A stretch of 64,000 nucleotides of DNA, from the NCBI GenBank assembly GCA_021740915.1, contig JAIOYW010000006.1, positions 1 to 64,000 on the forward strand. The letters are read 5' to 3'. Below the pieces are notes generated by a model that was given only the letters and a program-made list of their open reading frames with translations, did no database searches and was not told where the DNA came from. The translations under genes were made by a program, and so were the position numbers. Each line of letters begins with the position of its first letter. Position 1 is the first letter of the stretch. This document shows, piece after piece, positions 30,856-34,431 of the stretch. The stretch comes from Ignavibacteriales bacterium. Its GTDB lineage: Bacteria; Bacteroidota; Ignavibacteria; Ignavibacteriales; Melioribacteraceae.

Positions 30856-33024
30856 CTACAAAAGTAGAATAACACTTCCACGCAAATCTGTCCAGGTGTC
30901 TGATTTTTGAAAAAGTCGAAATTCATCAATTCCGCCAGGAAAAAATTCAGCAAGTTCATCCAGGGTTTGACCGGAATAATTTTGAATATCGGTTTGATCA
31001 GCTAACATTTTCACCCACCTGCATACACTATCAGGAAGCACCCACTCACCTTCAGCATCGTTTAAGTGCACCGTCAATATAGACGAACTGGCATCTGTTC
31101 TTCTAATTGCCGGTTTGGTTGTCACCCACAATATCCGTTGATTTCTGCTAAAAGGTTTCGGGATATCGAGCAATTTTCTTATATGGTTTTTTTTGACGGT
31201 TGCTGGAGGCATTTTTTGATCGAACCATTTATTAACAGGCTTATCCATTCCTGACCCGTTCAAATAATTTGACAACGCAAGATTTAATCCCTGATAGTAA
31301 TCAGAGTAATTAAGACCACTATTATCATCGTGCGCAAGGTCGTTGTTTGCAAATGGATTATCTCTTGATGACTTGATTCTGACACCGAAATAATCGGGAT
31401 TTGCAGCGACCGGACTATGAGTGGTCAAAGCAAACTGGTGCCAGAATCCGGAAGTAAAAAGCTCATTCAGGAAAAATTGTCTAACCAGATCAAGACTGTT
31501 AATTATCTCTTGTTCGGTTTGTGAAGGGAAGCCAAACATCAGGTAAGAATGGATCATAATTCCAGACTCTGAAAAATTGCGGCATGTTTTTGCCACCTGC
31601 TCAACTGTCACGCCTTTATTAATCAATTTAAGCAGTCGGTCATCAGCAACTTCAATTCCACCGCTGACGGCAATACAACCGGAAAGTGAGAGCAGCCGGC
31701 ATAAGTCTATAGTAAAAGCCTTCTCAAATCTGATATTTCCCCACCATGTAACATTTATTTCACGCCTTAGAATCTCAATTGCAACCTCCCGAAGAAGTGA
31801 AGGGGGAGCAGCTTCATCAACAAAATGAAAATTTCTGATGCCTGTTTGTCCGATCAGATCTTCCATCCAATTAACGATTGTTTGAGCTTTGGCAGGGTCA
31901 TAACGCCCGATATAATCTAATGAGATGTCACAAAAAGTGCATTTTTTCCAATAGCATCCATGGGCAGTCGCAAGTTTGTTCCAATAGCCATCAGACCACA
32001 AGCTGTGCATAGGATTAGTGGTTTCAGTTACTGAAATGTAATTGCCGGGGTCAATGCCCACCAACGAAGGGGGAACGAGTGAATTATGTGCGTGTATTTT
32101 ATTGTCAGCATTATCAAAATATGAGAGAGTTCCGCTGATGTTAGTTAGAGTCCTGACCCAATTGAATTTACGATCCTGATCTGTCAGGTTCTTAATTATG
32201 TTAAGAAGAGGCAGTTCTCCATCATCGAAGGTGAGAAAATCAATGTAGTCAAACAATCGCTTATCTTTAATAAGCCGGAGTTCGGTATTAACATAGCCGC
32301 CGCCGAATGCAATTTTTATCTCAGGAAAGTTTTTCTTCAGAAAGTCGGCAGAGATAAGCGCACTTAGGAGATTGCCAGGGAAAGGTATTGTAAATCCCGC
32401 AAAAAGGGGCTTATCCGATATGATTTTATTCTCAAGAAGCCGAAGCATAATTATTTCAATCACGTTCCTTTCTTTTCCAATCTCATCAATGAAAGGTTGG
32501 AAACTTGCAGCGCTAATGGAAATTTTTTCAGCGTATCGGCTGAGTCCGAAATGGGGCGTAACATTATTCCGTATAAAGCGGGTAAGATCATCAATAAAAA
32601 GAGAACAATAAAATTTCGCTTGATCGAATCCGTGGTGATTCCCAAATTTTTCTGCTGCATAATGAGAATGAGCAAAAGAATAACCCTGTGGGATAAATGA
32701 TTCTTTTGAAAACAAATATGATAATCCGTTCTCCTTCCCCTGAAGAAAGCGGATGACATCTTCAACCAATCGCGTATATACGTGCTTAAGATTCCAAAGA
32801 CGAATATCATAAGGATCTGCAATCGATTCAGGCGAAACGTTTGCAAATATTTCACTAAGACCGGTTGCTGAAAATATTTTAAGTGTAGCTTCAAGCGAAA
32901 GATCATAACTCTCGGCATTTATTTTCTGTGATCTCAGAAATCCGCTTAGTTGTGTCACAGAAGGATAGGTGGTGTTGATCTGTGAAAAAGGAGGAATAAT
33001 CAGAATTATTTTTTCAGTGCTGAT
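30856..33024 (-). CDS. B12-binding-domain radical SAM protein
   Basis: A protein of 722 residues if it begins at an ATC codon at 33024, or 700 from the first standard codon (GTG 32958). I chose 33024 because the frame upstream of the GTG encodes the family N-terminus IILIIPPFSQINTTYPSV and AGGGA lies six bases before ATC; no ATG, GTG or TTG exists in frame between the stop and the GTG. The N-terminal half is the cobalamin-binding-type Rossmann domain (FGGGYVNTEL, DDGELPLL) without a DxHxxG motif; the core has CYWKKCTFC (Cys357, 362, 365 in this numbering), a CX4CX2C cluster, and GGIEV, then a C-terminal extension. Its substrate is unknown. Confidence 0.88.
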   Translation of the reverse strand: MSTEKIILIIPPFSQINTTYPSVTQLSGFLRSQKINAESYDLSLEATLKIFSATGLSEIFANVSPESIADPYDIRLWNLKHVYTRLVEDVIRFLQGKENGLSYLFSKESFIPQGYSFAHSHYAAEKFGNHHGFDQAKFYCSLFIDDLTRFIRNNVTPHFGLSRYAEKISISAASFQPFIDEIGKERNVIEIIMLRLLENKIISDKPLFAGFTIPFPGNLLSALISADFLKKNFPEIKIAFGGGYVNTELRLIKDKRLFDYIDFLTFDDGELPLLNIIKNLTDQDRKFNWVRTLTNISGTLSYFDNADNKIHAHNSLVPPSLVGIDPGNYISVTETTNPMHSLWSDGYWNKLATAHGCYWKKCTFCDISLDYIGRYDPAKAQTIVNWMEDLIGQTGIRNFHFVDEAAPPSLLREVAIEILRREINVTWWGNIRFEKAFTIDLCRLLSLSGCIAVSGGIEVADDRLLKLINKGVTVEQVAKTCRNFSESGIMIHSYLMFGFPSQTEQEIINSLDLVRQFFLNELFTSGFWHQFALTTHSPVAANPDYFGVRIKSSRDNPFANNDLAHDDNSGLNYSDYYQGLNLALSNYLNGSGMDKPVNKWFDQKMPPATVKKNHIRKLLDIPKPFSRNQRILWVTTKPAIRRTDASSSILTVHLNDAEGEWVLPDSVCRWVKMLADQTDIQNYSGQTLDELAEFFPGGIDEFRLFQKSDTWTDLRGSVILLL

Positions 33025-33195
33025 GGAATTTCCCTGGTGACTTAAATAAACAATTTATATAAAGAATAAAATTCATAAATTGAAACACAATCCGGTACAA
33101 AAATATGGAGTAAAAAATTTAATAAACAAATTAAGCAGTGGATGATCAGAAATTAGCACGGTCTTATGATTTAGATCTGATTGGCCAGTTTTCCT

Positions 33196-34431
33196 TCATC
33201 TGATTTTTATAAATTTCTGAGTAAACCATTTTTTCCCATCGTGTAGTTTTAAGAAGTACACACCAGCATTAAAGTGTTGAAGGGGTAAAAAAGAACTGCC
33301 ATTTGAATGATTTTGTTCAAATACCATTTCTCCAAGCACATTAAATATCATAATTCGCGAATTCACAGGGATCATTTTACCTGGCTGCAATGAGAGCGTA
33401 ATATAACCATTTGTTGGATTAGGGAACAGGTAAAGTGCAGTTGATGTTGTTTCCGTATTATCGACTTTTGAAGATACCACCCGACTAAGACAGTCTCTGA
33501 AAAATTCAGCAACGCTATCATTATATGCCTGAAATTCAGGCTCCGAATTCCCGAGATAAAGATTTAGTTCATTGTGATCGTAAGGAGATGTATTAAATAA
33601 TGTGACCGGAATATTGTTATTTACCAGGACATCCGCAAAGCGGGTCGCGAGATCAATACGCTCAGGAGTACCTTGGTGAACGAGCATAAAATCCGGAATG
33701 TCTTTATTTTCATCTATGAACCGAATCGGGGAAGCCTGTCCCCAGATTGCAGTATCAGCACCAAATGCATTAATATAGGATACCCATTGCTCATCTCCTG
33801 CTGTCGGATAATTTGACATATAATACGGAATATCGTATGAAGCCGGATCGAGAGAGCAGGTGCATTTTATCCATTTAATAGATAATCCGACTTCCTGCAG
33901 ATAACTTTCATCCGTACTAATTAATGAAAACAGATGCCCGCCTGATGAACTGCCAATCAGTGCAATACGGTCTGTGTCTCCACCAAAATATGGAATATTT
34001 TCATAAACCCACCGTACAGCTTTTGCAGCATCTTTTGGATGAGCAGGAAAAACAATCCTTTCGGGATTAAAGATATCAGGTGGATTGGGAGAAAGTCGAT
34101 AATTAATACTTACAAAAATATAGCCAAGGCTTGTAAAAAATTCATCCTTATAACGTGTCTGAGTTTTATCTCCTATCCGCCAGCCTCCGGCATGTGCCCA
34201 GATCATAACGGGTTTTAATCCGTTTCCGCCATTTGGTACATATATATCAAGGCTTAGTAGATTATTATCGACTCCTGGTTTAGTATCGTACTGAATATCT
34301 TGAAATTTTTGATATGATTGAGCTGGTACAGACTTCACAAAAATAATCCATATTAGAAAATTAATAATTGCTAAAAAGTGAATGTAACGAAAAGTATTGA
34401 ATTTAGTATTTGGACTAAAAGCGAATGTCAT
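33196..34431 (-). CDS. Secreted alpha/beta-hydrolase (esterase-like) with T9SS sorting tail
   Basis: A 411-residue protein from ATG 34431; an in-frame TTG at 34449 is possible. The signal-type N-terminus ends near VPAQS. The catalytic part has the oxyanion HAGGW, the nucleophile GSSSGG, a later Asp region and a His in SPYDHNEL, as in the BD-FAE/carboxylesterase group. The last about 80 residues are a T9SS sorting domain (FPNPTNGYITLSL, MIFNVLGEMVF, AGVYFLKLHDG, FIKIR). It should act outside the cell on an ester, for instance of plant polysaccharide; that is inferred. Both neighbours have their own spacing. Confidence 0.88.
   Translation of the reverse strand: MTFAFSPNTKFNTFRYIHFLAIINFLIWIIFVKSVPAQSYQKFQDIQYDTKPGVDNNLLSLDIYVPNGGNGLKPVMIWAHAGGWRIGDKTQTRYKDEFFTSLGYIFVSINYRLSPNPPDIFNPERIVFPAHPKDAAKAVRWVYENIPYFGGDTDRIALIGSSSGGHLFSLISTDESYLQEVGLSIKWIKCTCSLDPASYDIPYYMSNYPTAGDEQWVSYINAFGADTAIWGQASPIRFIDENKDIPDFMLVHQGTPERIDLATRFADVLVNNNIPVTLFNTSPYDHNELNLYLGNSEPEFQAYNDSVAEFFRDCLSRVVSSKVDNTETTSTALYLFPNPTNGYITLSLQPGKMIPVNSRIMIFNVLGEMVFEQNHSNGSSFLPLQHFNAGVYFLKLHDGKKWFTQKFIKIR

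Follow-up and report, generated by a model that had tools for sequence, protein, structure and literature searches.

The gene for a cobalamin-type radical SAM enzyme in an Ignavibacteriales bacterium lacks a standard start codon ahead of its conserved N-terminus, and its translation probably begins at an isoleucine codon, the ATC at 33024-33022 on the minus strand of the window, the 64,000-nucleotide stretch of DNA analysed here. The gene is thus a likely new member of the already known class of AUH-start genes.

The minus-strand frame 30856-33054 comprises 732 codons; it opens directly after the TAA at 33057-33055 and closes with the stop codon at 30858-30856 (Table 1). Neither ATG nor GTG nor TTG occurs in the 32 codons between this TAA and GTG 32958; these codons encode the residues IVYLSHQGNSISTEKIILIIPPFSQINTTYPS and correspond to the conserved N-terminus. 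The preliminary description of the locus had stated the absence of a standard start in this interval, the presence of an ATC with AGGGA six bases upstream and the position of a conserved strand and loop ahead of the GTG; the frame reads as described, the six bases AATTCC separate AGGGA 33035-33031 from ATC 33024-33022, and the N-terminus carries the motif PPF.Q.N and, in the predicted model, the strand KIILII. Stretches of at least 32 codons free of standard starts are not rare in this genome (16 of 588 genes); the unusual point is that a conserved coding sequence begins within such a stretch. The gene is the sole copy in its genome, whose assembly comprises 4.35 Mb in 35 contigs, and two further hits there, with E 3.3e-13 and 2.6e-4, each span just a part of the protein.

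Table 1. Coordinates of the radical SAM gene, its start region and further genes of the same genome that lack a standard start.
Feature	Position	Strand	Basis or remark
In-frame stop TAA 5' of the frame	33055..33057	-	sequence
AGGGA, Shine-Dalgarno-like	33031..33035	-	GGG at -10 to -8, the genome's G peak
ATC, most likely start codon	33022..33024	-	RBS score, boundary of coding constraint
B12-type radical SAM gene, read from ATC, 722 codons and stop	30856..33024	-	frame, Pfam, orthologs
First beta strand KIILII, residues 5-10 counted from ATC	32995..33012	-	AlphaFold2 model
Conserved loop PPFSQINTTYP	32962..32994	-	alignment of 11 sequences, codon divergence
GTG, sole standard start ahead of the gene body; judged internal valine 23	32956..32958	-	RBS, model
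C357, C362, C365 (CYWKKCTFC), presumed iron-sulfur cluster ligands	31930..31956	-	invariant in A1 and A2
rsgA of the same genome, ATC start	L196:11739-12704 = C8:171739-172704	-	start survey
Deacetylase-like gene	C10:222531-223787 = L123:18531-19787	-	125 codons ahead of first standard start
Wzx-like membrane protein gene	C10:177438-178667 (L121)	-	86 codons ahead of first standard start

The ATC is set apart from the neighbouring codons by its ribosome-binding site (RBS). An RBS profile was derived from 254 confidently assigned ATG starts of the same genome, which show a G peak at -9/-8, and was applied to every in-frame codon from 33054 to 32958 (n=33). ATC 33024 reached 3.78, the top score of the 33 codons, corresponding to the 86th percentile of real starts and the 98th of the null, and thereby combines a good ribosome-binding distance with a better score than any standard start, as GTG 32958 obtained -2.02 (4th percentile of real starts). 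The preliminary description had proposed an ATC or ATT start and had noted that the ATC, given the AGGGA ahead of it, stands at the expected site of a start. The ATC is favoured by its RBS, by coding constraint and by the precedent of infC and rsgA, whereas the in-frame ATT codons score at most 1.51; the G's of AGGGA do fall on the G peak of the genome, but its longest match to the Shine-Dalgarno sequence is AGG, and it is a fair Shine-Dalgarno core, no better. A start model fitted over 618 genes of the genome, with start-codon penalties set by hand, also chooses the ATC, 3.4 above the GTG.

The second line of evidence is the divergence at the three codon positions, which was determined for 11 of the 12 order orthologs (one without the motif used) in an ungapped alignment from PPF. 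Upstream of the ATC, the values for positions 1/2/3 are 0.74/0.65/0.70, from the ATC to PPF 0.52/0.37/0.63, from PPF to the GTG 0.16/0.02/0.54 and downstream of GTG 32958 0.39/0.39/0.69; the constraint between the ATC and PPF is weak, and this segment is partly non-coding in relatives, whose starts lie nearer to PPF. From this pattern it follows that the protein-coding signal starts ahead of PPF and not at GTG 32958, and the aligned sequences indicate that the stretch ahead of the GTG is under coding constraint, whereas no such constraint is seen ahead of the ATC. Predicted RNA folding is no better than that of shuffled sequences in the ATC region (z 0.93) and better in the GTG region (z -2.69). 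Rfam gave no match to a regulatory RNA up to E 1 in 32800-33400, and no sigma-70-like promoter is listed immediately upstream of the gene, the window total being 8 against 8.3 expected.

The protein matches Pfam PF04055 (Radical_SAM) with E 1.9e-13 and 51.4 bits, compared with a gathering cut-off of 29.5, whereas all 19 NCBIfam matches are well under their cut-offs, the best being TIGR04479 with 95 of 600 bits. No solved structure is related to it by sequence at E 0.001. An AlphaFold2 model, which was built from 22 sequences and has a mean pLDDT of 86.2, predicts an N-terminal alpha/beta domain that opens with a strand, as in B12-binding radical SAM proteins, and its top fold matches are the cobalamin enzymes TsrM (6wte; E 1.7e-13) and OxsB (5ul4, 5ul3; E 6.0e-13), with 13-16% identity and a partial overlap (TM-score 0.38-0.46 on the query). 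Membership in PF04055 is thus based on the profile and the predicted fold. Radical SAM proteins usually carry the cysteine motif CX3CX2C, and other spacings are known in some members; here the spacing is CX4CX2C in the alignments A1 and A2. In the predicted model, the first strand lies between the ATC and GTG 32958, and a protein starting at the GTG would be deprived of strand 1. Downstream of the strand, P11, P12, F13, Q15, N17 and Y20 are invariant in 11 sequences. The product is presumably an intact cobalamin-type radical SAM enzyme with a metabolic function, for which cobalamin binding is predicted.

The gene is present in 14 of 164 genomes of the order at E 1e-60 or better, the genome under study included, and ten orthologs with 47-54% identity were aligned from a search of 58 genomes, which also included it. 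The named relatives L032-L034 are metagenome-assembled genomes (MAGs) called Ignavibacteria or Ignavibacteriaceae bacterium, and two of these loci are duplicate DNA (L032 = L008, the latter a locus of this order; L034 = L114). Genus-mates of the genome do not appear among the matches listed in the order-wide search for this gene. Altogether 94 related loci were examined, the window included, of which 90 contain the PPF.Q.N motif; 88 of these 90 are distinct. The nearest standard start 6-16 codons ahead of PPF is ATG in 43, GTG in 24 and TTG in 20 of these 90 loci, and none is found in three; the window is the sole locus without any standard start upstream of the motif. The two others are L059, which has an ATG 20 codons ahead of PPF, and L054. 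In the latter, a Saprospiraceae MAG ortholog (L054:2990-3025), a GTG lies 5 codons and an ATT 8 codons ahead of PPF, making it a possible second case of a non-standard start in the family.

Within the order, an N-terminus is available for 12 orthologs, which begin with ATG (10), TTG (1) or GTG (1). The comparison with close relatives, to which the preliminary description had pointed, bears out the conserved N-terminus, but an ATC start occurs in 0 of 12; since relatives do not share it, we class the gene as a likely rather than a proven AUH-start member. Eight of the 12 orthologs start seven codons ahead of PPF, where the window has GAA 33015. As this usual ATG column of the order lies three codons downstream of the ATC, a simple change from ATG to ATC, the other origin that had been suggested for the codon, is not visible. 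The ATC itself stands ten codons ahead of PPF, a position at which many relatives outside the order have ATG, GTG or TTG. A separate observation concerns the Hymenobacteraceae, in which 31 classified of 32 loci (between L038 and L104) start with GTG (16) or TTG (15) and none with ATG, compared with 35 ATG, 25 GTG and 13 TTG for flanking genes assigned by the same crude method, which considers coding signal only and ignores start type, in species that are related to one another. Weak starts may perhaps have been selected for the radical SAM gene in this family.

AUH starts in two other genes of the order, infC and rsgA, are seen in many genomes, so that the sequence-based case for them is firmer than that for the single radical SAM gene. 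The infC gene of the genome under study opens with GGAGTTAATTT-ATT-AGC-ACA and has no standard start upstream. The infC sample comprised 51 loci (L115, L138-L187), namely the genome's own, the best-scoring 30 among the 151 genomes that gave a match and 20 picked by hand, including carriers of the radical SAM gene; 14 of the 51 could not be aligned at the N-terminus. Among the remaining 37 loci, 34 lack a standard start, and the start position holds ATC in 31, only ATT in five and neither in one. By sequence, the main infC start codon of the order is thus ATC, unlike the ATT known from E. coli. For rsgA, 36 loci (including L207-L242) of 145 genomes with a match were inspected, and 33 of them have an isoleucine codon (ATT 15, ATA 13, ATC 5) exactly six codons ahead of a KIES-like anchor, often directly downstream of a GGAGG-like patch. 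Standard starts are absent in 22 of the 36 rsgA loci, lie within 12 codons of the anchor in ten and only farther upstream in four. By eye, several of these 14 loci have the standard codon within or upstream of the GGAGG-like patch; L226 and L242 look like ordinary ATG starts, and some of the 14 may use their upstream standard codon. Elsewhere in the phylum, a standard start is near in all 12 alignable rsgA loci (17 examined). In the open-licence papers searched, no report of an rsgA start at an isoleucine codon or of ATC starts in Ignavibacteria was found.

Such starts are few in the genome itself. Start codons were surveyed in 818 kb with 618 genes, using a model with hand-set penalties per start codon, which picked ATG for 514 genes, TTG for 74, GTG for 22 and ATC, ATT or ATA for eight. 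The eight are infC, rsgA, the radical SAM gene, a deacetylase-like gene, a Wzx-like gene, prfB, one frameshifted C14 gene and a restriction gene of C6. We assigned the names prfB, rsgA, restriction gene, Wzx-like and deacetylase-like from the protein letters. Three were dropped as start cases: prfB, taken as the programmed frameshift of RF2, the C14 gene, which is frameshifted, and the C6 restriction gene, which is decayed. The radical SAM gene is therefore one of about five in the 818 kb sample. The deacetylase-like gene likely starts at an ATC behind TAAGGA; its single homolog outside this genome among 160 genomes (L137) has 34% identity and probably a TTG start, and Pfam returned nothing for it or for two C14 fragments. 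In the Wzx-like gene, the ATT chosen by the model is the 16th codon, and an ATT or CTG farther upstream is a possible start, as is decay of the 5' end. An initial survey of codon usage separated coding from non-coding DNA poorly, and a dicodon model together with the start model was used instead. The dicodon surveys, which have no RBS term, rank the radical SAM gene low on account of its short N-terminal extension, and similar genes could escape them. Broken frames were also observed in the 818 kb, at C8:114568-114861 (in-frame stop), C14:13127-14263 and C14:31943-32452 (frameshifts and an in-frame stop) and C6:33288-34978 (the decayed restriction gene); they are decayed genes or assembly errors, and some resemble genuine gene decay.

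The alternative with the best standing, which we nevertheless consider unlikely, is that the codon is truly ATG or the assembly otherwise wrong, through an error in the consensus or in a single base, or through a minor variant of the strain. ATC is one base from ATG, the locus is known from one fragmented assembly, no second assembly of the species was found in the 58-genome search, the 164-genome search of the order or viral contigs, which leaves room for a base error or a recent mutation, and further damaged frames exist in the sample (C14, C6, C8). However, part of this damage resembles true gene decay, the usual ATG column of the order lies three codons downstream and so gives no hint of an earlier ATG at the ATC site, and the ATT of infC and the ATC of rsgA have counterparts in relatives, so that such codons are not all errors in this genome. 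It is distinctly improbable that the start was recently lost and that the gene, newly silenced, keeps its conserved N-terminus as a relic. This would agree with the standard start kept in all 12 order orthologs with an N-terminus and with the Wzx-like and deacetylase-like genes, which also lack one and could be decaying too, but the 722 codons are free of stops and frameshifts, and neither the cysteines nor the seven invariant residues ahead of the GTG have been lost. Taken together, base error, strain variant or recent silencing hold an appreciable minority of the probability.

Somewhat less probable again is initiation at another non-standard site, either an in-frame codon (ATA 33009, ATT 33006 or CTG 33003) or CTG 33017, which is out of frame and would need slippage on the A6 run that follows it to yield LKKIILIIPPF. 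The ortholog shape M-K-x-L-L-I-I-PPF would suit the latter, and the RBS scores of CTG 33003 and ATT 33006 are middling; these sites reach 1.19-1.51 compared with 3.78 for the ATC, whereas CTG 33017 scores -1.83 and would call for both a rare start and a shift of frame. A start at GTG 32958, with the residues upstream not made, is very improbable: it is the sole standard start ahead of the gene body, but its RBS score is poor, strand 1 and seven invariant residues would be lost, and the third-position bias upstream and the predicted folding at the GTG speak against it.

If translation begins at ATC 33024-33022, formylmethionine would be placed at an isoleucine codon to give fMet-Ser-Thr-Glu-Lys-Ile-Ile-Leu-Ile-Ile-Pro-Pro-Phe..., and the N-terminal peptide would be expected to begin with MSTEKIILIIPPF or STEKIILIIPPF. 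The purine patch AGGGA would position the ribosome, and the ordinary CAU initiator tRNA would pair with AUC despite a mismatch at the third base. The initiator anticodon-arm pattern GGGNTNATNNCCC, a search that would overlook an initiator tRNA with a different arm, occurs at 34 places in the genome, compared with six for the reversed pattern. Among five of the 34 places examined, one normal CAU initiator tRNA gene was detected, and Rfam found a tRNA only at the CAU place of three places tested. The other four of these five are not tRNA genes according to ARAGORN, and the idea of a dedicated initiator tRNA carrying an isoleucine anticodon was rejected for them. With the normal CAU tRNA as initiator, decoding of AUC would involve a mismatch at the third base.

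In a purified system, IF3 disfavours weak third-base pairs, and the results given in that account do not include AUC paired with the anticodon CAU (PMC10158994). In S. aureus, reporter expression from AUU and AUA starts is described as about 10% of that from AUG in poor medium and, for ccpN, as up to 30% in rich medium (PMC13009471). This IF3 effect and these yields suggest that synthesis of the radical SAM enzyme would be low and IF3-sensitive, and it may increase under IF3 limitation, in the manner of infC. For the radical SAM gene, we infer that initiation does occur at the ATC and that it would be inefficient and dependent on IF3.

The isoleucine start codon is shared with infC of E. coli (AUU) and of S. 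aureus (AUA). E. coli infC is reportedly under autocontrol via its AUU codon, as described in 1987 by Butler and in related work. Unlike infC, whose expression is controlled by its own product, the radical SAM gene presumably codes for an enzyme of metabolism, and relatives do not keep its ATC. An arXiv paper is also said to treat bacterial genes that prefer non-AUG starts. Like the radical SAM gene, cvfC1 (AUU), ccpN (AUA) and citZ (AUA) of S. aureus are described as AUH starts outside infC; however, they were established by ribosome profiling and reporter tests, whereas the present case is a prediction from sequence, and conserved extended Shine-Dalgarno motifs are reported for cvfC1 and ccpN, compared with the short AGG match here (PMC13009471). 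In the same study, the non-canonical start of citZ is confined to one lineage, and AUC is never named in the main text (PMC13009471); in view of citZ, conservation among relatives is taken here as a supporting feature of AUH-start genes and not as a requirement. No switch from AUG to AUC is listed in the part of a comparative study that covers 61,358 reconstructed AUG starts from 36 genome triplets (PMC5622118), and ATC, AUC, ATT and infC are not mentioned in PMC11445065.

For annotation, a gene finder restricted to ATG, GTG and TTG would be expected to clip the first strand of the radical SAM enzyme and, in the order, to set the infC start wrongly, as well as the rsgA start in many cases. More tentatively, it is possible that the order runs a small set of AUH-start genes under IF3 control, composed of infC, rsgA and species-specific recruits such as the radical SAM enzyme. 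If so, a change in IF3 activity would adjust genes of ribosome assembly and metabolism jointly. If initiation at AUC is true, the order would be a natural comparative system, comprising a conserved pair of genes and one or more recent recruits, in which the gain, retention and IF3 regulation of AUH start codons could be followed, a question that, in the papers cited here, has so far concerned a handful of genes.
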